DNA of 64,000 bases from positions 682,001-746,000 of the forward strand of contig CP137327.1 of NCBI GenBank assembly GCA_033182465.1. The letters run 5' to 3'. Of the stretch, positions 30,286 through 47,663 are shown in pieces. The notes under the pieces are model-generated. The model searched no databases. It saw nothing but the letters and a program-made list of their open reading frames with translations, and was not told the DNA's origin. The stretch's first letter is position 1. Every line of letters starts with the position of its first letter. This DNA is from Sanghuangporus weigelae (Eukaryota > Basidiomycota > Agaricomycetes > Hymenochaetales > Hymenochaetaceae). Made by a program: the position numbers and the translations under genes.

Positions 30286-31764
30286 TTATGCGGAAGTCAA
30301 CACCTCAGGTGCAATCCGCTGCTCGACGTTCTTGAGCTTGTCTGTCCAAGCCTTTAACCTATCTGCCAGTGCACCGATCTGTTCGCGGTCTAGCACACGC
30401 GGTTGTACCCAGGTGATATGCGCTGTTTGGTCGATCTCGTCGAGCGAGCCGCGGACGAGTCCAAGACTACATCGCACGCGCGCGAGTTAGATAACGAGCA
30501 ATAGTCGGGGATATGAAACGCAACGCACCTAAGAGCTTTCATCACCAGATGCTCTACATCACCTACATCAAGTCGCGTCTCCTCAGCTATAGTCTGGAAG
30601 CTGATAGTGCGACTATCCCTATTCCTCCTGGACACCGAGTCGATGAGTGCCATCAAGCAGATCTTTTGTCGTAAAAAGGGGTAATTTTGTTGTAATATCG
30701 GCTCTTTGGGGAAAAGAGGCGCAAGAGCTTCAAATTTCCCGATGTCTCCAGCGTTGAACGTGAAAAGGAGTTTCTTGATCCACTCGTGAGGCGTTCCATC
30801 CAATGAGGATAAAATGGAGTGCATCAGCTGCGCAAGAACAAACAAAAAGAGATGAGATTGAGGGATGAAATCGGATAGAGGAGCGAAGAATGAAAACATA
30901 CCAATTCTCCGAAATTGTAGATATTATCTGCTAATAATGCAGCCACACTAAGGTTATGTGCACGCAACATCCTCTCCTCTTCCGAGAGGTCCTTAGCAAG
31001 GTCAATGCAAGCAAGATAGAGAAGGGAGTTCTTGTAGTAAGGGCCATAGTCCGCCTTCGCCTATTTGCATGTTCAGAAGCTTACCAAGGAGCAACGATAC
31101 ACGTAATACACACCTTGTAGTAATCTGCAGCTACGCTGTAATAAGCCGCATTTACTGCCGGGTCAACACCGTCAAGATCGTCCAGAATCTTCCACGCTGA
31201 GTCCATATCTGTGCGCGTTCCATCCAGATCACCATAGAGGAGTTTTGCATGTGCCAAGGATGAAAGAAGGAGCACATGAGCTTCGGGTGATTCTTCGGTG
31301 TTGATTCGAGAAAGGAGGGCAGTGAGGAAGCTGAGGACGGTGACGGGGTCTGAGAAGATAGTCAACATAGCCGAACAGAATGGAGATCATATCGCGCTCA
31401 CTGTCTATTTCCTTCGAGACGATGACACCCATTTCGACCAGTCTCAGTTGGTTCAACCTCTCCTCGAAGTCTCTAACAAACTTCTCGAAGACATCGACAC
31501 GATATGGTCTTGACAGCTCATGGCGGAAGAACTCAAACAGCTTCAAGGTTAGCTGATGCCAAAGTCTGATCAAGTCAAAGCGCATTAGATGGCGCGACTG
31601 CCTAGCATCGACCGGTCATATACGCACTTTCGATGATACAGAGTCTGCAAAGACTCGAATAAGGGATGAAGTTCTTGTGGCGCCGTCGACAAAACGGTCG
31701 TTAAGTATTCATCTACGTTAATCTTGTCTGGTTTGTCGACAGCCATCGCTGTTGACGAAGACAT
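30286..31764 (-). CDS. RPN9: 26S proteasome lid subunit RPN9 (PSMD13)
   Basis: RPN9 is a PCI-domain scaffold of the 19S lid. The start at 31762-31764 reads MSSSTAMAVDKPDKINVDEYL. Helical repeats follow (WHQLTLKLFEFFRHELSRPY, DMDSAWKILDDLDGVDPAVN, AAYYSVAADYYK), then ILSSLDGTPHEWIKKLLFTFNAGDI, which is characteristic of the family. The C-terminal PCI winged helix (TISFQTIAEETRLDVGDVEH) leads to a tail ending RIAPEVLTSA at 30286. Introns are short and the exons join without disruption. The expected size is about 390-400 residues and what I see fits. Confidence 0.95.
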
Positions 31765-33985
31765 TTTGATGCGCTAGGAGGTATACTGCTGAGTGAAGTG
31801 TAGGTACGAGAAACGCGTAAGTGCAGATGCTGACGCGCTGATTGATGCTGACGCGTCGTTCTGTTTGTCTCTGTTTGCTTCCCCACCATCCTTCACTCCA
31901 ACGTCCACCAGGTCACAGTCGTTCACTGACGTGTAGCCGCTACAATAAACCAGTATTTAACTCGAGGAAAAGCCAATAAACATCCAGGCAGACTCTATGG
32001 AAAACTTCAGTCGCAACGACATTCAGCATGTATCCTGCCTCAGAGTCAACAACTTGATCTGATCTTGTCCATCGCGCTATGATATGGTGCCACGTCCTTC
32101 TGCTCAGCAAGATAGTATGTGTAGACAGCCTAGTCAAAGAAGTCGCAAGCAGCGAAGGCGTGTATTTCCAACGATTATATGCGTCTTAGGTGTATAATGA
32201 GCTACGGTGCGCGTTTTTTCGCCTTGTTCTTGCGCGTGTTGTGTTTCAGTAGTCAAAAATTGCTGAACAATGATTTCTCTGCACACCTTTGAAACGCTCG
32301 TAGGCGAGTTTCCCAGAGAAATATCCAGCAGCTATGCTTGGCAATCTCATATTGCTTCCTCAAGACCAAAGAGAAAAAAAGGAAGGATGAATTGAGAAGC
32401 AATGATTTTTCAACAGGTTCCAGACATTCGACACAAGAACTCGCATTCTGTTTCCTCTGCGACGGCCCCTTCAGTTAATATTTTCCTTACTGGCTTCCAT
32501 ATTCCGGAATGCGATAATGAAGGTTGGATGCTGTGCTCAATGCTAGCTAGACAACAGTAGTCGTCCCCGACCATCGCTTCTTGTCTGACCTACGGATTTA
32601 ATTAATCGATGGCGGGTCCACAATTTGGAATATTCGAGCTTGGCTGTCCGACTCTGCTCGCAGTACACGAGAATTCACGATGCTCAGCAAGGCTATTGCA
32701 AATAGGAACTGCCCTATTATCATGATCCCCGAGATCGATTACCGGTTCCCGCACGACCGCGTCTAACGAATGCGGCGTTGTAGACCGTTGGCAAGATCAA
32801 GCCGCGGGCAGCATTCTCATGCGGTCGTCGTTTCGTTTCTGCGGCGGCCATCGCTCGAGATGAGTTAATGTCACCGGCGCTGTCGCAAATAAGCCGGTCG
32901 AAGCTGGCACATTGAATTCGTCATCAGCTAGCTGCTGAGGCGACAGACAATGTCTTCATTTCATTTCTTCGCCAATGCTACGACTATGCTACGATGCTCT
33001 AATGGTGATAAGCTCGCATAGCACTTCTTAGTCGAGAATCAAGACCTTCAAGGTTCATCCGCCGAGAATGAGTGCTCCGCCTAAGAAGTTCCAAATTTAG
33101 AAACACCGGTGCGCCCATATGCACTCGTAGCAACATCGCGGTCCAATGCGCGTATAACGTCCTCGGTATGACAAGAAGACCTTATCCGCTGAGCGGGAAG
33201 ATAAGTATGCTCTGTTCACTCGGCATCGTTGTGCCCCATTTTACTCGAAAGGCCTGTCCGTTTGGGTATGTTGATTAGCCCTGGCGACTTTGTACTTTTC
33301 AACGCGATGCTCGGACTGATGGAACTGTACGGAACATCGGCTGAGAGCCCCCTAGCACTGATGATGGCGTATAATCGAAGCCCCCAAGCACATTGGTATC
33401 TACTGGTTTTCAACTGAAGGAACCTGCCATGTATGGGCAAGTTAATATCCCCCAGGCCCAAATCTTGTCCTTCTTCGTATTTCCCTTGTTTTCGGTTTCT
33501 CGCGGCATAGAATCTTTGTCCGCGCGTACAGAGCACACTTTCTTCAAGACAGCCGGGCAATGTTCCTATCTGCACGAGGCTATCGACTGAACATTCTCGT
33601 GTAGCGACATTGCAAAGAAGCGACGAACTCGTAGCTTGCTGGGAAACACGTTGAGGGGATCGAGCACGTGGTACACGTGGTATCTTATCGGATTTCCGGG
33701 ATGGAACCTCCTTTCAACCAAAGCAGGAAGGTGCGGAGAAATCCCACGGCTATATGCGGTACGGTCCGGATTATTTTTTGGGCATTTCCCGGATAGGACT
33801 GCCTTTCATCCAAAAATGTACCGTGGCTTGTTCAAGATAGCCTTCAAATATGACATGGATTCGCCAAAAGATCAACGTATCCTCCGCTCCCTCCATCTCT
33901 CTCTTCCAGCCACATATCTCGCTCTTCAGAGCGGGTCTCGTTAGCGCGCGCGACCTCTCCACCCTTTCGTGGGTAGACGACCGAA
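31765..33985. other. 2.2-kb intergenic region upstream of the first STE3 receptor
   Basis: I read both strands for short ORFs ending in Cys-aliphatic-aliphatic-X plus stop, as pheromone precursors do, and found none. Frames such as 33072-33278 and 33636-33944 have no recognisable content. The receptor promoter must lie at the right end; no TATA box stands out. Confidence 0.5.
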
Positions 33986-35461
33986 ATGGCAACAGAATCT
34001 TCTTACCCAGTCTACCCGACCCTCTTCTTCATCTCCTTCGTCCTCGTCTTAATCCCGCTGCCTTGGCATCTGCAGGCGTGGAACGTTGGGACATGCTCGT
34101 TCATGCTCTGGACCGCTGCGGCTTCACTTAGCTGGTTCATCAACTCGATAGTTTGGAAGGACAATGCTATCAACTGGGCGCCAGTCTGGTGCGATATTAG
34201 TGAGTGCATTTGCACTTTTAGCTCTTAAAATAGTCTGATCGAATGCTAAATCCGCAACTAAAATAGCCTCGCGCCTCATCATCGCGACCTCCGTCGCTAT
34301 TCCTGCGTCGTCGTTGACTATTACGCGACGCCTTTACAAGATTTCTCGAGTTCAGACAATCATGTCCAGTCAGAAAGAGGTGAGTTGATACTGTATTGGT
34401 TCCGAGCCACGGTAGTAATGAGATGCCATCGACAGAGAAAGAAGGAGCTTGCGATAGATCTGAGCATTTGCGTTGGTCTACCTGTATTTGTCATGATTTT
34501 ATGTACGTCGCGCATCGATTGTACTATGTTTTTCGGAACCTAACGATGACGTTTAGACTATTTCGTGCAAGGGCACCGGTTCGACATTCTGGAGCAGATT
34601 GGATGCTTCCCTGTCACCGTCAACACACCGCCCGCTTATGCGTTTGTGTGGATGTGGCCGTTACTCTTGGGGACGATCTCAATGGTTTACTGCATCTTCA
34701 CCGTTATAGCTTTCTTGAAGCGTCGGAGGGAGATGAGCCAGTTCCTCAATAGCAGCTCTCAGATCACGTTCTCCCGCTACTTCCGTCTCATGGCTCTAGC
34801 AATGATGGATACTTCGTTTACGATCCCACTCGCGTCCTTGGTGATCTGGCTAAACACCACTCAGTCGGAGATTTCCCCTTGGAGGGGTCTTGCCGACGTT
34901 CATTGGGGTTTCAGCCGTGTTGAGCAGATCCCTGCGGTGTTTTGGAGGATGGAGAAATGGAACATCGTCTCGTTTCACTTGAACCGAAGTTTGATCATCT
35001 TTTGCGCTGTCGAGTTCTTCGTCTTCTTCGGGTTCGCAGAGGAGAACCGCAAAAACTACGCAAGGGTCTATTGGACAATCATGAAGCGATTCGGCTACTA
35101 CCCGAAACCAAAGGGATCGACGTTCTCGAATTCTTCAGCTTTCCGGACACCAAACCTACCGGTCATGTCCAACCAAGGCGGACTCAGAGTGCTGGTCAGC
35201 ACCACCAACGCGAAGGTCGAGAAGCGAGAATCGTTCATCTCGTCTATCGGAGACCTTTCTTCATCAATATCCGTTAGCACGACATACGACGAGCGCAAAG
35301 ATGGCAAACCACACATCGAGACAATCACGGACAGCCTCCCATCGTCGCCTGATGATATTGAGCTTCCGAATCTACATAACGTACCTACGACGACCAACGC
35401 CTCGACACAACCACCGAGTCGACCTGCGCGCTGTGCCTCTCTAGGAGACGACGTTGTGTAA
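33986..35461 (+). CDS. STE3: STE3-type (B-type) seven-transmembrane pheromone receptor, copy 1
   Basis: STE3-like receptors are G-protein-coupled receptors that bind farnesylated peptide pheromones. Four exons (33986-34199, 34267-34379, 34436-34502, 34557-35461) give 432 residues. The seven hydrophobic helices begin YPTLFFISFVLVLIPLPWHL. Family landmarks are WCDI followed by the helix-3 region and RRLYKI, QGHRFDILEQIGC after helix 4, and a cytoplasmic loop with FLKRRREM. The Ser/Thr-rich C-terminal tail (about 110 residues) is the usual site of regulation. All splice junctions keep the frame, so the gene looks intact. A second receptor follows about 770 bp downstream in the same orientation. 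Whether it determines mating specificity cannot be told from one haplotype. Confidence 0.94.
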
Positions 35462-36226
35462 CCACATCAAATCGTCATGTCATCTCTCTCCTTGTTTTTC
35501 TTTTATTTTCATTTCTTTCGGCTGTTTCGCATATTCATACCCTGCGTACTGTCTCAGGAAGGAACTTAAAGACCCAGATGTTTATTGTGTCATTATCTTG
35601 TGCTTGACTCTTCTATCCGCGGCCCCTCCCTATGACTGTATTACCAGCTGTTATTTTTTCTTGTCAAATATCTGAAAGTTACTTATCACATTCCTTTTCG
35701 TAATCGCTCGTGTTGCGACCATTGCTTTGAAACCCTCCTTTATGTAGCACATCCTCCTCCAGGCCTCCTCCCCCTTGTTGTTTTTCTGTCCTACTTGTTT
35801 TCAAATTGGAAATCGAAATAGATTGGGAGTCAGTCCCATCATTGGACTATTCAGTTGCAACGTCTTGCGTGGCTGAGCAAACTGTGATCTGAGATCATCA
35901 GCATCAGCATTTGGCAGTTCCGATTGACGGCCCGAAGAGATGTTGGGCCACTTAAAACAACAAACGACTTGGGCCTCAGCACACAATGTCACCATTTTTC
36001 TTGTGTGGACTGCATTTGCTCGGCCAGTGCTTGATTTGTGCTTCAAAAGTTCCATCCCAAGCGTAAAATTACGGCCTGTGGCTATCCAAAATAGGCAACT
36101 GCCCATGTTCAAGCCACACGAATTCAGTCGCTTTCGTCCACCTTCATCACACTCATTTCTTTGCCTCCCACCAAATCAAGGAAGTGCTCGACAACGGTTG
36201 CGAAATTCGTTGCTTCAACGATCACC
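35462..36226. other. Spacer between the two receptors
   Basis: 765 bp, T-rich in its first half. I checked both strands for CaaX-ending peptides and found none with a start codon. One CWAT-stop frame near 35941 has no ATG. Confidence 0.5.
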
Positions 36227-37867
36227 ATGTTTAGCATATTCTATTCAACAATATCATTCCTTTCATCCGCACTCGTTTTGTTTCTCCTTCCGTGGTTCAT
36301 TCGTTTCCGAAGCGTTCCAGGGTTATTCACGATCGTTTGGCTTTTCGTCGTCAACTTCTTGTATGGGTTGAATGCTGCTGTATTCACTGGGGAAAGCCTC
36401 CTCGGGTTTCCTGCATATTGCGATGTCAGTGAGTGGGCTTCTCCGAATCTGAAAAGGTGTGGAAATCGATTGATAACCCTGGTATTTTGCCAGCCACGAA
36501 ACTCCTAATGGGTATGCAGATAGTCGTACCGACAGCCATGTTGTGCTACACATTCTCCATACATGACTGGATGGTCAGGCCAAAGGAACGCGACTTAAGT
36601 AAGAAGTTGCGCGAGTATAGAAGTTACTTTCATGCTATCCTTTGTTCCCTCACGCCTATCGTATACATGTCTCTTCGTAAGTATAGTCAAATTGTCTCAA
36701 CCTGTTCAGGACATGGACTCACGAATTTTGATTGACACAAGATATTGCCGCGCAAGGTCATCGTTTCGATCTAGTCAAGACTGTTGGGTGTATTCCATCG
36801 TCATCAAGCACCGCGTTGAGTTGGGTCCTCATCTGGCAGATTCTTATAGTCCCCTTCACTATCCTCGCCATCTATGGTTGTAAGTATGCTGAATCTCCTG
36901 TGAAAACTCCGATGTTGATTTCGCTGCCAATGCCCATTTAGTCTTTGTATTCAAATACTCATGGACGCATCATCGTAAATACTACGCTGAGCACATGACG
37001 ACCTGGGAGTTGATCGATTCCGATTTGCTATTCACGAAAGCCCCATTTGGAATCATTCGAATCGTCCGCTTATCCGGAATGATAGTCGTGGTCATGCTCT
37101 GCACGATCTGTACGCCGTACTATGGGCTCTCTGTGCTGTACCAAACAGATCACATCACTATCGCACAGAAGCCAGACTTCTATCGTGTTGAGATTTTCGA
37201 CTCTCTAAGCAACACGTCTCCCAGCGTGACCACAATGCGACTGTTCCTCTGGTCAGGACCGCTTTACAGCGTGCTGCTATTTGCAGCGAGTATCGACAAG
37301 TCGGTGATCGAATCGTATCCCTTCGTCTTTAAGAAATACGTTCTTCGCCGACCTGTCGGTGCCAATCCCGATCCAAGTCCAGGGATTGACCTCTCAAGTC
37401 TCACGCCGGTTCCTGTCCGGAAGCGCGTTCACCGGCGAGTGATGCGTAAGTCGCGTCAATATGATCCTCCTCTGTCTACTCTGGATTTCGATATTCCACT
37501 TCCTCCACGGCCCCACCCTGGATATCGCGCAAACGCAATGCTCCCTCCGGTACCGACTTCCACTCCGATGTCTCAACAGGAACCTCGGAAACCAGAAGTT
37601 GCATATGTCAAGAGTGTGCGTGGCAGTTATCAGCGGGGCCTTGCTCCGAGAAGAGGAAGTCGGGAGTACGAGGAAGCCATATGTCAACACGTCGAAGCAA
37701 ATGCGAAGTTTCCTATGTACATCATTCCAGAGTCTCCACCGTTGGCCGTGAACAACGAGCCATCAGCTCGAACCTGGGATGAGTTGCATACCATGCGCGA
37801 CAAGGAACAACAGGGCCAAGATTGTAGAACACCAAATCCAAACGATCGTCTCTTCCGAGATCCATAA
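36227..37867 (+). CDS. STE3: STE3-like pheromone receptor, copy 2 (diverged)
   Basis: Four exons (36227-36428, 36494-36676, 36742-36879, 36942-37867) give 482 residues. The hydrophobic helices start MFSIFYSTISFLSSALVLFLLPWF. The copy shares with receptor 1 the landmark QGHRFD...GC (here QGHRFDLVKTVGC), a YCD in the first extracellular loop, the same intron phases at introns 1, 3 and 4 of the helical region, and the family's helix order. Overall the sequence is very different from copy 1 and it has a long Pro/Arg-rich tail (residues about 340-482). It is either an ancient paralogue or a pheromone-receptor-like gene with a non-mating role, both known in Agaricomycetes. The gene looks intact. 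Confidence 0.88.
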
Positions 37868-39189: not shown

Positions 39190-41308
39190 ATGAAGGAGAT
39201 AATTTACATCCAGGCAGGAAACGTCTCGAATCACATAGGAACACACTTTTGGAACTCCCAGGAAGACTATTTTACATACAACAATGACTCCGAGCCCCTA
39301 GTCAATCACGACATTTCGTTCCGAGAAGGAGTCTCCGACCAAGCAAGTCCCTTCGCTACGTTCATTGTACGCGGAACCCTTATGAACTTGCTGTTCCATA
39401 GCATGAACCTACCTACTGTCCTAGAGTCCTGATTTTCGACCATAAATGTAAGGAATGTTCTACTTCTGGTTCGTCAGATAATTTATGAGGAACCAAGCAA
39501 ACTTCGGTCCACTAAGTAAATACAACGAACTTTACCCTGAAGTGCGAGACACAGAGCAACCCTTTCAGAAAGGTCTCTGGTAAGTGAATCGCATGTGTAG
39601 CTACTGTACAAGGCAGTGATGAAAACGAAACTGCAGGAATGGCACTATTTCCGAGCACCGACAAGAGACCATACCTAAAAGTGAATATCAGAAACGATTA
39701 GATGACGGAGATGATAGCGCGCAAGATTATCTCGAAAACAACAAATCCTCAAATATGAGATTCTGGTCCGACTTCAATCGTGTCTACTACATTCCCAGAT
39801 CTATACAGCAAGTACCAGATCTGCCGGAATGGGAGGCAAATAGAGGTGACTGGAACCATGGCAAAAGCATCTTTGAAAGATACAACATGGTTGGTCCTTA
39901 AATAACAGTATGCGCTGTTTTGACCGTTTGCTTCAGGATGCTTCTCTGAATGAAGGTTCCTTACGCAAATTCACTGAAGAGAGTAACCACTCTCAAGGAT
40001 TCCAGGTGTCTTTTGACAACAACTCTTTTGGCGGCTTCACAGTCAGACTTCTAGAGGGCATCAGAGACGACTTCCCTAAAATCCCGATTCTCGCCTTTCC
40101 CGTCTTGTCTGGAGTGGTCCCTTCGAGAGTCGATTTCGAAGATGTTCGTAATCTCCTTAACGATGCGGTATCTTGATTTTCTCATACTTACCTCAGGTTC
40201 CAATGCGAAAAGCATCATTACAAGACGCCGTGTGCCTATGCTCCTTAGACGAGCTCGAAACTCAAAGCATCCCGGTCCAATCTCCCCTATCCTGGAGATT
40301 TGGGAAATGGTCGGAACTACTAAATCTTGACGTGTGTTTGCATATTCTATACCTCCTTACTTCTGAGGAGTCACCTGGCATGAGCAGTGACAAAAATCTG
40401 TAGAACTCTAATACATATCAATCCTCTGCTCTCCTATCATCACTCATCGAGAGTGCGACCTTGCCGCTACGGTACGTTACCTCAGATCCTTGAAATATCT
40501 AAGCGATCTGACGTTCCTGATCTGCAGGATAAAAGGCAGAAATGAGGATCTCTCCGACCTTTGCACACAACTGAACTGGGCGCAAAATACTCGCATCTCA
40601 CAGCTCTCTGGTGTCATCCCGTATCGGGAGGAAGACCAGCTAGACAATGTAACGTATGACTTCTCCGCGTCAGTAGAGCAGAATCCGACGGTACGTTCAT
40701 TGTTTGCATGACGTTAGGAAGCTCTGTCTGATGGACCCGCCTGGATGGAAAGAAGAATAGCCGATGCCTAGCGCAGAGAACCGTCTCTAGAGGACTGAAC
40801 ATCAACCTAGCCCGGAAAGTCGATGCGTATTTTGCTTCGCGCACAGGCTTGGAAGATCCATACATTACAAGGTACACCAAAATCGACCTCGCTGCATTTA
40901 TTGAGCATCTGACTTAAAACCTGCTGCACACGAAGCAATTATGCCCCAGCCTATCCTCTTTTATCGTCCTTCCCAAGCATCTTCCGCCAAGGGGTGATAC
41001 GTTCCTCGAACCCTCCCACTCAAAGGTTCGAATCCACTTCAAGCGGAATTGAGAGAAACATCTCCTTACTCTCCGTACTTCGAACAACGACTTCAACGGC
41101 CAATACGCTTCGGAGCTACGCGACACTCTCACAGGCTTGCGTGGTAAGGAGATACAGTGGACTGGACACAGCGGGTTTAGAGACGGACGAGCTGCGCGAT
41201 ATGGTTGAGAAGCTTACAGAGATGGCGGAAAATTATGCTGGTGAAGGTGAGGAGGAAAGCGATGAACCTGAGGAAGAAGACATCTATGATGAGGAGCTTG
41301 CTGAATGA
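39190..41308 (+). CDS. DML1: Misato / DML1 tubulin-like protein
   Basis: DML1/Misato is a tubulin-FtsZ-related protein needed for mitochondrial morphology and inheritance. Start MKEIIYIQAGNVSNHIGTHF at 39190, followed by WNSQEDYFTY and HDISFREGVSDQ, is the family N-terminus. Successive exons give TYCPRVLIFDHKSNFGPL, RFWSDFNRVYYIPRSIQQ, SQGFQVSFDNNSFGGFTVRL, LAFPVLSGVVPSR and VSRGLNINLARKVDAYF. The last exon ends AENYAGEGEEESDEPEEEDI with an acidic tail, stop at 41306-41308. There are eight to nine exons. The first intron (39343-39401) is best read as GC-AG, since GCAAGT is the only donor that keeps frame and family sequence. No disruption is seen. Confidence 0.9.
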
Positions 41309-43462: not shown

Positions 43463-43966
43463 ATGCGACCGTCACTCGCAGTGTTAGGTGGTAGGTCTGC
43501 ATGGAAAGGTGATTTCAATCTTATCTGTTGTAGCGAAAAGATAAACTTGACACACAAATTACTTTGTTTCTTCTCTCAGGACCATACTTCGTGTCGTTTC
43601 CTAACTTGCGAGATGCGTTGGACAACCGGGTGCCTATCTACACGCAGGTTCGGGCCTGTACGATCTTACCTAACTTCGTGGGGTGCGTTTCATATACCAC
43701 ATCCTTCGTAGAATGTATAAGGATGGAGGATGACTTGAGCTGACGCTATGGCGCGAACAGGATTCGATTCATGGTGCACAATGGGAAGGACTACCTCCCT
43801 GTGACGGTTACTCAGGACATGGTTGGGCATAAATTGGGGGAGTTTGCGCCGACGAGGAAGCGCTTTGTGTTTAAGTTCGTTGAGAGAAAACTTATTCGAC
43901 TGTGTGCTTTGTTGTGAGCGTTGGACTGATACGTTGTATTTCGACAGGCAAACGAAGAACAGATAG
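43463..43966 (+). CDS. RSM19: Mitochondrial small-subunit ribosomal protein uS19m
   Basis: A nuclear-encoded mitoribosomal protein of the small-subunit head. Four exons (43463-43508, 43580-43682, 43761-43874, 43948-43966) give exactly 93 residues. [20 protein letters not shown] matches the classic S19 start. [16 protein letters not shown] follows, then [20 protein letters not shown], the most conserved S19 signature, and QTKNR at the end. Length equals bacterial S19. Such a short gene split by four exons is easy for ORF finders to miss. It lies 840 bp upstream of the kinase gene. Confidence 0.95.
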
Positions 43967-44808
43967 TCTTTGGCATCTTTGCAGTAATATCCGCCCACCG
44001 GTCCTTTATTAGCATTCCGAGATAATACAAGCATTTTCCACCAGCATGACTTGTGGTCCTATGAACAATGGGATACCCTATCGGGTTTCAAATGTCGCGC
44101 TCAACGTTTCTCCACATCTCCATCTGGCAACTCTTCCATCTCGTTTCGTTATATTCGACCTCAAAAACGTCTCCGCCTCCGTTGCGGAAAAACGATGTTG
44201 TTGTCGTAAGAATATCTCAGACATGTGCTTGAAGGGGATATGTGCTTCTTTCGTACAGACTACATGTAGTTTCTCCTGAGAGATATGTCTGGCCTCAGCG
44301 AATGGGCCAGGGCCAATACCTGAATATTACTTGGTTCGACGGCTGGTTGGTTTGCTAGTGGTTTTGTAAAATAAAAGATAAATCAAATATAATGGTCACG
44401 TTTCGTTTGCGTTGTGATTGTGAATAGACGCGGGACCAGTAGTGTAGCTAGCATCCCTATTTTCTGCACATCTCCTTTCCCCATCGTGAACGTCCTCAAC
44501 GTCTTTCCTCAAGTCCACCATCACATCTCCTCGCTGTCTGGCCTTGCCACGTCGTCGCCGGCATCGTCGAGCAGCATACATCCACCGTGTTTGTGGTGTG
44601 ATATCCATCACGCGTATCCCTGAGACGTCTTCGCCGCCATTCGCCGCTTGTTTTCACTCTCAAGCCGACCGCCATCGACGACGGCGAGTGGTGCAGTACA
44701 TAAGAGTTACATAGCCGTGAATAGTCTTCGCCTTTAAAGTTCCACCCCTGTGCCTTCGCTACCGATAGCCGATCGCGTCTTGTTGCATACTGTACATAAT
44801 CGACAACG
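43967..44808. other. Intergenic region and promoter/leader of the PAK kinase
   Basis: 842 bp. It contains a 77-codon ATG frame (44046-44279) ending CSFS-stop, which I do not accept as a pheromone gene. The C-rich stretch 44740-44808 is probably the kinase 5' UTR. Confidence 0.45.
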
Positions 44809-47663
44809 ATGGCCTTTCACCAGGTTACGGCGACGTCTCTAACTCCTTCCCGCCCCGCCCCTCAGGCGCCTCTGCGCCGCGAAACCGACAATAGCTACGC
44901 TAGTACTAGCACTCTAGTCTCAGTCGGTTACAAGACTTCTTTCCAGTTCAACCAGCCATCAGGCGCGGGCTCGTCCTACGCCACGTCCTACTCCGGCATC
45001 GGTGCCTCCCCCATCCGCCAGAGCCCTCCCAGAATGAATAGCGAAATAGTCCGCACTGGCACAGCGAGTATTAAGGAGGAGGGTTTTGCCAGCATATTCT
45101 GGGTACGCAAATGGCTAGTCTTGAAGGAGGATATTCTGTCTTTCCACAAGAACGAGGTGAGCGCGACTAATCCGTCGCTTCATCTTATATTACTGATCTC
45201 GAGCTACGCCATAAACAGGGCTCGCCACAACAAAGTGTAATCAGGCTATGCGACGTCACGAACGTCGAACGTGTGGATCTTAAACCATACTGCCTCGTCG
45301 TCGAAACTCCAGATAGGAAAGTGTACTTATCACTCAAGAGCGATGAGGAGGTCTATGCGTGGCAAGACGATATTTACTCCCGCAGCCCCTTGCAAAGCGT
45401 AGGACAACCCACGAACTTTGTGCACAAAGTGCACGTTGGTTTTGACCCCATATCCGGAGGCTTCACGGTGAGCACCGCGATGCAATACGAGTTAATTTTG
45501 GATATCACTTAGTCTGTTGCCGTTACCAGGGCCTGCCTGAGCAATGGAGCAAGCTACTAACGCGATCGGCAATCACACGGGAAGACTATGCTAAGAACCC
45601 TCAAGCCGTACTCGAAGTGCTGGAGTTCTATACTGACCGTCAGAAGCATGAGATGGAAGAGATGGGATTGTCTCCGGGAATGTCGCGCAGCGGGTCCTCC
45701 GCCACTACGCTCTCGCCGTATAACGAGGCACCATCAGCGCCTCGTTTCAACGCTGGTACTGGGTTAGCAGGGTCAGCTAAGCCCGGGCCGGTTCAGACGC
45801 TGGCTTCTGATCGCCCGGGTCTTGCCCGTCAAGACTCTGCTCCGTCAGGCCTCAACGGAAAATCATCAACTGCTATCGCGGCGGCTCGTGCAGCGGAAAT
45901 CGTAAACGGAGCCCATGCGCAACATGCTAATACAATCGGCACCGGTACTCAACCGCGGACTCCGCTTCCGCTCTCGCCGGGTGCACTACAAGCAACTCGC
46001 CCCGCTCCACCTGCGCCACAGCGCCCCTTGCTCACAGCTCAGCGTCCTGCTCCTCCAGCTCCGAAGCCCGGTATTCCAGAGCATACACCGAGTAGTCACG
46101 ACTTGAGAACCCGCGCAAAGGCACAAGGCCCACAACAAGATCGCGTGGATATCCGGCCTCCTGGACTTGATCATGACCATATGCCACAGCGCAAGGACTC
46201 CATGCCGAGTCGCGAGCAGGATCGCGAAAGGGACGAGCGACGTCCGCAAATGCCGCCTTCGAAGTCTTCGCCTGCTGTCTCTGCGCCGGGTTCACAGCCA
46301 GCACCGGGCCCAGCTGGCGCAACCGTCGGCCCTCCACCCGTGAAACCCTTGCAGACGACCAAGAAGCTCCCGAAGGAGCAACCTGCCACTGTTACAATCA
46401 CCGCGCCGTCGGATGAACCTTCCAATGGCAGCGTGGCCGCAGCTGCGGCGGCTTTAGAGAAACCAAAGGAGAAGGAAAGACGAATCAGCACCATGTCGGA
46501 AGCGCAGATCATGGATAAGCTGCGCAGTGTTGTGAATCAGGACGACCCGAAGATGATTTACAGCAAGATCAAGAAGATCGGGCAAGGGTATGCACTCCTT
46601 CTCATATAACAATTCGTTTCAGCGTAATATTCACATTTCTGGGTCTTCTTGCAGTGCTTCTGGACACGTCTATGTTGCTAAGGTGCTTGCAACGAGCAAG
46701 AAGGTCGCAATCAAGGAGATGGACTTGTCACGCCAACCACGTATAGAACTTATCGTAAATGAAATTCTCGTCATGAAGGAGTCACAACACCCGAACATCG
46801 TCAACTTCCTCGAAAGTTATCTTGTCCGGAACAATGAATTATGGGTCGTCATGGAGTACATGGAGGGAGGTGCTCTCACGGATATCATAGAGAACAATAC
46901 TTTGGAGGAGGAACAGATTGCGAGCATCTGCTTGGAGGTGAATCCGGCTTCCTGTTTTTTGCCTTCTTTGATACTTGATGAGAAGTATGGGAGAACTGAC
47001 GAAAATTTTAGACTTGCAAAGGTCTCAGACATCTTCACGAACAGCACATCATCCATCGAGATATCAAGTCTGACAACGTCCTTCTTGATTCTCAAGGACG
47101 TGTAAAAATAAGTTAGTACACTTTCCATCTCAACCATCAATCGACTTAATCAAACTCTACACTCCTTCCCGCCTCTTCCCACCACAGCCGACTTCGGATT
47201 CTGCGCAAAGCTGACGGATCAGAAGTCCAAGCGTGCGACGATGGTTGGGACACCTTATTGGATGGCGCCAGAGGTCGTCAAGCAAAAGGAGTATGGAGCG
47301 AAAGTAGATATTTGGTCCCTTGGGATCATGGCGATTGAGATGATTGAGAATGAGCCTCCGTACCTAGACGAGGAGCCCCTCAAGGCGTTGTACTTGATTG
47401 CCACGAACGGCACGCCCACGCTGAAGAAACCAGACGCTCTCAGCAGGGAGTTGAAGAGCTTCTTGAGCGTGTGTCTTTGTGTAGACGTGAAGAGCCGTGC
47501 GTCGGCGAATGAGCTGCTTGACGTATGTTTCTCAGTCCCCAGTGCATCCTTCCGGTCAACAGAAATGCTCACTCTTTGCCTCTAGCATGAATTCTTGAAG
47601 AAGGCATGCGCGCCCTCAGGCTTGGCGTCATTACTGCTCTTCAAGAGCCGACCAGCAAACTAA
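44809..47663 (+). CDS. CLA4: PAK-family serine/threonine kinase with PH and CRIB domains (CLA4 type)
   Basis: Cdc42/Rac-activated kinase controlling polarity and, in basidiomycetes, mating and hyphal growth. Seven exons (44809-45156, 45219-45467, 45530-46587, 46655-46937, 47012-47111, 47188-47522, 47586-47663) give 816 residues. Domain order: a PH domain ([19 protein letters not shown] to [12 protein letters not shown]), a CRIB box ([20 protein letters not shown]), a long Pro/Ala-rich linker, and the kinase domain. The kinase has [12 protein letters not shown] with VAIKEMD, catalytic [16 protein letters not shown] and the PAK activation segment [10 protein letters not shown]. The PH domain distinguishes CLA4 from STE20. 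All catalytic residues are present. Two STE3 receptors lie 7-11 kb away. Confidence 0.95.

Follow-up and report, generated by a model that had tools for sequence, protein, structure and literature searches.

The pair of pheromone-receptor genes described here from Sanghuangporus weigelae very probably represents what remains, namely the receptors, of a MAT-B (P/R) region in a wood-decaying agaricomycete, an assignment that presumes, from sequence, both orthology and the loss of pheromone genes. Two intact STE3-type receptor genes lie side by side, and no recognisable pheromone gene accompanies them. Elsewhere, on contigs C1, C9, C10 and C13, the genome encodes four or more intact precursors of CaaX pheromones. 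Taken as a whole, we favour, with a probability of roughly 0.7, a MAT-B region without linked pheromones in a fungus whose mating is bipolar and governed by homeodomain (HD) genes only, the receptors being fed by unlinked pheromones. The window, i.e. the whole stretch of 64,000 nucleotides that was analysed, corresponds to C10:682001-746000 of a single assembly of 33.87 Mb in 13 contigs; coordinates without a contig name refer to this window.

The receptor pair and its neighbours

The two receptor genes, R1 and R2, and the stretch between them are arranged as follows.

33986..35461, + strand: R1, canonical STE3-type receptor, 4 exons, 432 aa, PF02076 E 3.3e-101
33986-34199, 34267-34379, 34436-34502 and 34557-35461, + strand: exons of R1 (214, 113, 67 and 905 bp)
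35462..36226, no strand: intergenic stretch between R1 and R2, 765 bp, no CaaX stop found by scanning
36227..37867, + strand: R2, diverged STE3-type receptor with a long C-terminal tail, 4 exons, 482 aa, PF02076 E 6.8e-35
36227-36428, 36494-36676, 36742-36879 and 36942-37867, + strand: exons of R2 (202, 183, 138 and 926 bp)

The earlier note had described two intact tandem receptors in the same orientation, 765 bp apart, strongly diverged and sharing a QGHRFD...GC landmark, and this description was borne out, coordinates, strand and spacing included. Both proteins match PF02076 above the curated cut-off of 29.2 bits and over the seven-helix core, R1 with 338.8 bits (profile positions 2-292 of 292) and R2 with 121.1 bits (2-280); a crude hydropathy scan gave seven hydrophobic peaks over threshold in R2 and six in R1. 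Their divergence is such that BLASTP aligned 171 residues in the N-terminal half at 26% identity (22% in an alignment of four receptors) and could not credibly align the C-terminal halves. R1 is nonetheless the closest other gene to R2 in the genome (28% over 61 residues). As QGHRF...GC, the landmark is invariant in the four aligned receptors, from which a decayed copy at C10:1545k, reading QMRRY at the QGHRF position, was left out. Comparison with solved STE3 structures gave no credible match.

Genome-wide, PF02076 matches correspond to five genes, three intact and two decayed, and the presence of two decayed receptors among five was counted in favour of a reduced MAT-B region. The third intact gene, at C7:564k, encodes 356 aa. 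The C10:1545k copy is without its first helix (the profile match begins at 27 of 292), and a copia-type frame of about 1530 aa lies about 0.6 kb beyond this remnant on the opposite strand; the other decayed copy, at C10:1734k, has an in-frame stop just ahead of TM7, with the frame open past it. Exon lengths of 110, 67 and 138 bp, derived from intron positions, characterize the C7 receptor, and exons of 110/113, 67 and 138 bp are found in receptor genes of S. commune (PMC8161036). Since the 113 and 67 bp exons of R1, the 138 bp exon of R2 and all three of the C7 gene recur in S. commune, ancestral intron positions are probably shared, and R1 and R2 would each probably lack a different one of them.

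The genes on either side of the receptors were identified by their profile matches.

30390..31764 (approximate), - strand: left neighbour, PSMD13/Rpn9-like proteasome subunit, PF22037 E 1.5e-17, PCI E 1e-5
39190..41305 (approximate), + strand: DML1/Misato homologue, PF10644 E 9.7e-20, PF14881 E 8.2e-10 and 2.8e-7 on further exons
43534..43917 (approximate), + strand: RSM19 (mitochondrial ribosomal protein S19) homologue, PF00203 E 1.9e-15
44809..47585 (approximate), + strand: CLA4-type PAK kinase, Pkinase E 4.4e-17 and 1.3e-22, PBD E 3.8e-9

Two further matches fell under the cut-off, namely PF00203 on the preceding exon of RSM19 (E 4.5e-4) and a weak PH match in the kinase (E 0.063). The distance from the end of R2 to the first ATG of CLA4 is 6.94 kb. 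With DML1, RSM19 and CLA4 on its right flank, the locus is MAT-B-like. These flank genes of MAT-B (PAK, RSM19, DML1) are at the locus and RIC1 is elsewhere, on C1; since a PSMD13-like gene occupies the left side, only one MAT-B flank is conserved. CLA4 is unlinked to matB in F. velutipes and thus not always found at this place (PMC3140503). A flank in the style of P. ostreatus, with MFS and UbiA (PMC13108863), was rejected on the UbiA evidence: of 21 UbiA matches C10 carries none and C7 one, at 1.3 Mb from the C7 receptor.

MAT-A is located on C1, where three homeobox stretches (C1:1210-1216k) adjoin a MIP-like peptidase (C1:1207-1209k), HD genes next to MIP being the usual setting of MAT-A. 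One more homeobox match, the fourth, lies at C9:1117k. Among other genes, one peroxidase fragment has as its best PDB match a versatile peroxidase from which it is clearly distinct in sequence.

Search for pheromone precursors at the locus and elsewhere

A loose scan of 31.8-38.1 kb, allowing any X and no minimum length, yielded two CaaX-like stops, both rejected: the one at 32083-32115 is without an ATG, and the one at 33841-34131 overlaps R1 exon 1 in a different frame. A narrow scan (ATG start, 30-110 aa, tighter CaaX class) found no ORF in the same interval, against a shuffle mean of 0.18 (60 shuffles), two in 31-45 kb against 0.28, and four in the whole window against 1.45 (20 shuffles). 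Two candidates right of the receptors were discarded as pheromones, 43771-43917 (ending CALL), which is inside the Ribosomal_S19 coding stretch of RSM19, and 44046-44279 (ending CSFS), with no Pfam match at E 1 and absent from the pheromone-profile matches listed. A profile was built from the pheromones of this genome, only four related sequences; it gave the five spliced candidates of 31-45 kb no more than 0.2 bits, and among the matches listed no reading frame of the window did better than E 1.3 against it. Precursor genes linked to the receptors, a mark of MAT-B, were thus not recognised in the window. The RSM19 frame ending in Cys-Ala-Leu-Leu mimics a CaaX stop and can mislead simple CaaX scans near MAT-B.

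The surroundings of the three other STE3 loci were similarly devoid of recognisable precursors, 30 kb at each giving no pheromone-profile match among the matches listed. Four CaaX-like ORFs (35, 47, 48 and 120 aa) were present in these 90 kb, none of them among the profile matches listed; the ORF scan used here considered the first ATG only and lengths up to 130 aa, and missed the C1:930k precursor described below. The 47-aa ORF ends CVAL and has the C10:1734k receptor at a distance of about 15 kb.

Searching the genome with PF08015 pointed to three places, C1:930k, C9:558.8k and C10:353.6k. A C[IVM][IVM]A-stop pattern matched 80 times genome-wide and 76 times in a reversed control, so that the pattern alone is meaningless. 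Eighteen of the 80 end in TGG, which is no stop, and all the remaining 62 were read; four looked like precursors, the three already named and one at C13:749k. Other CaaX ends far from the receptors would escape this pattern, which covers C[IVM][IVM]A ends. A protein search added a fifth pheromone-like gene, at C5:121.6k. Scored as proteins against PF08015, four of the five exceed the 22-bit cut-off (31, 28.7, 25.7 and 24.7) and the C5 copy reaches 17.9. The four intact precursors, of 50, 44, 77 and 44 aa, start with MD and finish with S[GS]TYC[VI]IA. At C5:121.4-121.8k there are two SGTY[GC]VIA units; the first has no Cys, and the second ends CVIAW, where an extra residue leaves no CaaX end; this gene is probably decayed, and perhaps a decaying tandem precursor. 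HMG-box-like motifs were sought upstream of three receptors and the four precursors and occurred only at the C9 precursor (two, with a background of 1.08 per kb). The intact precursor at C1:930k is separated from the MIP/homeodomain cluster of that contig by about 277 kb, and A. bisporus precursors are likewise loosely linked to the mating-type locus. Three of the four mature peptides of A. bisporus are said to resemble non-mating-type peptides, with the consensus GGGSGNGAYC (PMC8305134), and the dispersed peptides found here resemble this type by eye, which we take as a lead only. In the freely accessible main texts of the literature, supplements aside, we found no earlier report of dispersed precursors in Hymenochaetaceae.

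The earlier note had seen no pheromone gene in 31.8-38.1 kb, and this holds, neither of the two stops of the loose scan being credible. It had offered two explanations, a cluster of STE3 receptors alone with no role in mating, or a locus whose pheromone genes lie beyond the window or are spliced or unconventional. Each is partly right. Within the window the locus does consist of receptors only; its right flank, however, marks it as MAT-B-like and not as an unrelated STE3 cluster. Precursors do exist beyond the window, at 362 kb from the receptor pair on C10 and also on C1, C9 and C13, but they are conventional and unspliced.

A probable reduced MAT-B region and its alternatives

In the reading that we prefer, the linked pheromone genes would have been lost while canonical R1 and strongly diverged R2 stayed, and lipopeptide pheromones would still be made by small unlinked genes with near-identical C-termini on several contigs. 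The dispersed peptides are the obvious candidates for ligands of R1 and R2, and such a pairing may well exist. With the ligand genes lying apart from the receptor genes and coding for nearly uniform peptides, mating-type specificity could not readily be encoded by R1 and R2. Mating type would then probably be set by the homeodomain locus MAT-A alone, making the fungus bipolar, as suggested by this one assembly and by the parallels of I. hispidus and A. bisporus; the receptors would be presumably monomorphic. They may signal constitutively or developmentally, through a presumed G-protein/MAPK route, in self-signalling, hyphal growth, fusion or fruiting. Several points weigh against this reading. 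Canonical R1 could still be a mating receptor, the data come from one assembly, the left flank is not conserved, the authors of the S. sanghuang study hold a tetrapolar view, and 31-45 kb holds more CaaX-like ORFs than the average shuffle, though one of these is RSM19.

It could also be that the locus is a working tetrapolar MAT-B in which R1 (or R2) tells allelic pheromones apart, the genes for these having moved or being too divergent to be seen. R1 is canonical and intact, the flank is MAT-B-like, MAT-A is on a different contig, an argument also used for S. sanghuang (PMC8537844), and unusual CaaX ends are possible in Trichaptum precursors (PMC8970355). We nevertheless consider this unlikely: 31.8-38.1 kb holds no ATG-started CaaX ORF of 30-110 aa, the four intact precursors that were found are unlinked and have nearly one C-terminal sequence, and in Inonotus hispidus, bipolar by crosses, the PR genes are 100% identical between compatible strains (PMC12858565). 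Another possibility, to which we give still less credence, is that R1 and R2 are orphan non-mating receptors comparable to S. commune Brl and F. velutipes STE3.s, with a non-CaaX ligand, the true MAT-B receptors being lost or represented by the decayed C10 copies. Non-mating STE3-like genes are common near B loci, and S. commune brl1 is described as having no pheromone genes around it (PMC8161036, PMC3140503); moreover, two of the four Trichaptum receptors, STE3.1 and STE3.3, are judged probably non-mating (PMC8970355), and the C-terminal half of R2 does not align to R1 by BLASTP. However, the genome does encode CaaX precursors, so CaaX ligands are available, and R1 matches STE3 across the whole profile.

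Returning to the reduced MAT-B region, one may tentatively go further, although we doubt that the following holds in full: receptors formerly used in mate recognition would be fed by dispersed, unlinked genes encoding one near-uniform lipopeptide (...S[GS]TYC), resulting in constitutive self-signalling, and the lack of a pheromone gene in related Hymenochaetaceae would be a search artefact. Precursor searches in these relatives concerned the receptor contigs only in I. hispidus (PMC12858565) and database annotation in S. sanghuang (PMC8537844), and I. obliquus precursors were called 'too short to align' (PMC9020118). The arrangement of receptors without ligands has already been published in S. 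sanghuang and is much the same in other mushrooms, to which the dispersed pheromone family is a useful addition. A whole-genome view would explain the ligandless receptors, candidate ligand genes being present but unlinked, and provides concrete peptides for receptor assays in fungi where readings of single genomes have left the breeding system in dispute. The locus may thereby illustrate how a mate-recognition system can survive once it no longer sets mating type.

Comparison with known systems

The closest likeness, judged by the published description, is to S. sanghuang, in which the STE3 genes A3780 and A3781 are adjacent, CLA4 is at 6.97 kb (6.94 kb here) and no precursor was identified beside the pair (PMC8537844). 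The genomes are of similar size, 33.34 Mb in S. sanghuang against 33.87 Mb here; they differ in that no precursor is reported genome-wide for S. sanghuang, whereas four intact unlinked ones are present in ours. The authors of that study read such an arrangement as tetrapolar, and tetrapolarity has also been inferred, from one genome each, for I. hispidus (PMC9787987) and I. obliquus (PMC9020118). In Trichaptum, the MAT-B flanks comprise PAK, RSM19, DML1, RIC1 and SNF2 (PMC8970355). The first three of these and the STE3 receptors are shared with our locus; in contrast, the receptors of Trichaptum number four, two precursors are linked to them, and RIC1 and SNF2 are at the locus, where we found two receptors and no linked precursor.

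I. hispidus resembles S. weigelae in having STE3 genes for which no precursor was found on the receptor contigs, and HD genes with MIP elsewhere (PMC12858565). It differs in that its four PR genes are on two contigs and that monomorphism and bipolarity were tested there, whereas here they are predicted; elsewhere the I. hispidus genome is described as having three ste3 genes that do not cluster (PMC9787987). Receptor number reaches five in P. chrysosporium (PMC4101180), and the bipolar Boletales of the genus Rhizopogon have B loci with fewer P/R genes that are yet linked (PMC5473757). The bipolar A. bisporus, whose HD locus sets mating, is like S. weigelae in its scattered receptors (four) and precursors (four), although it belongs to a different order and has one receptor that falls among those of the mating type in a tree (PMC8305134). 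Finally, growth and self-recognition are suggested as functions by work on S. commune receptors that do not act in mating (PMC8161036).
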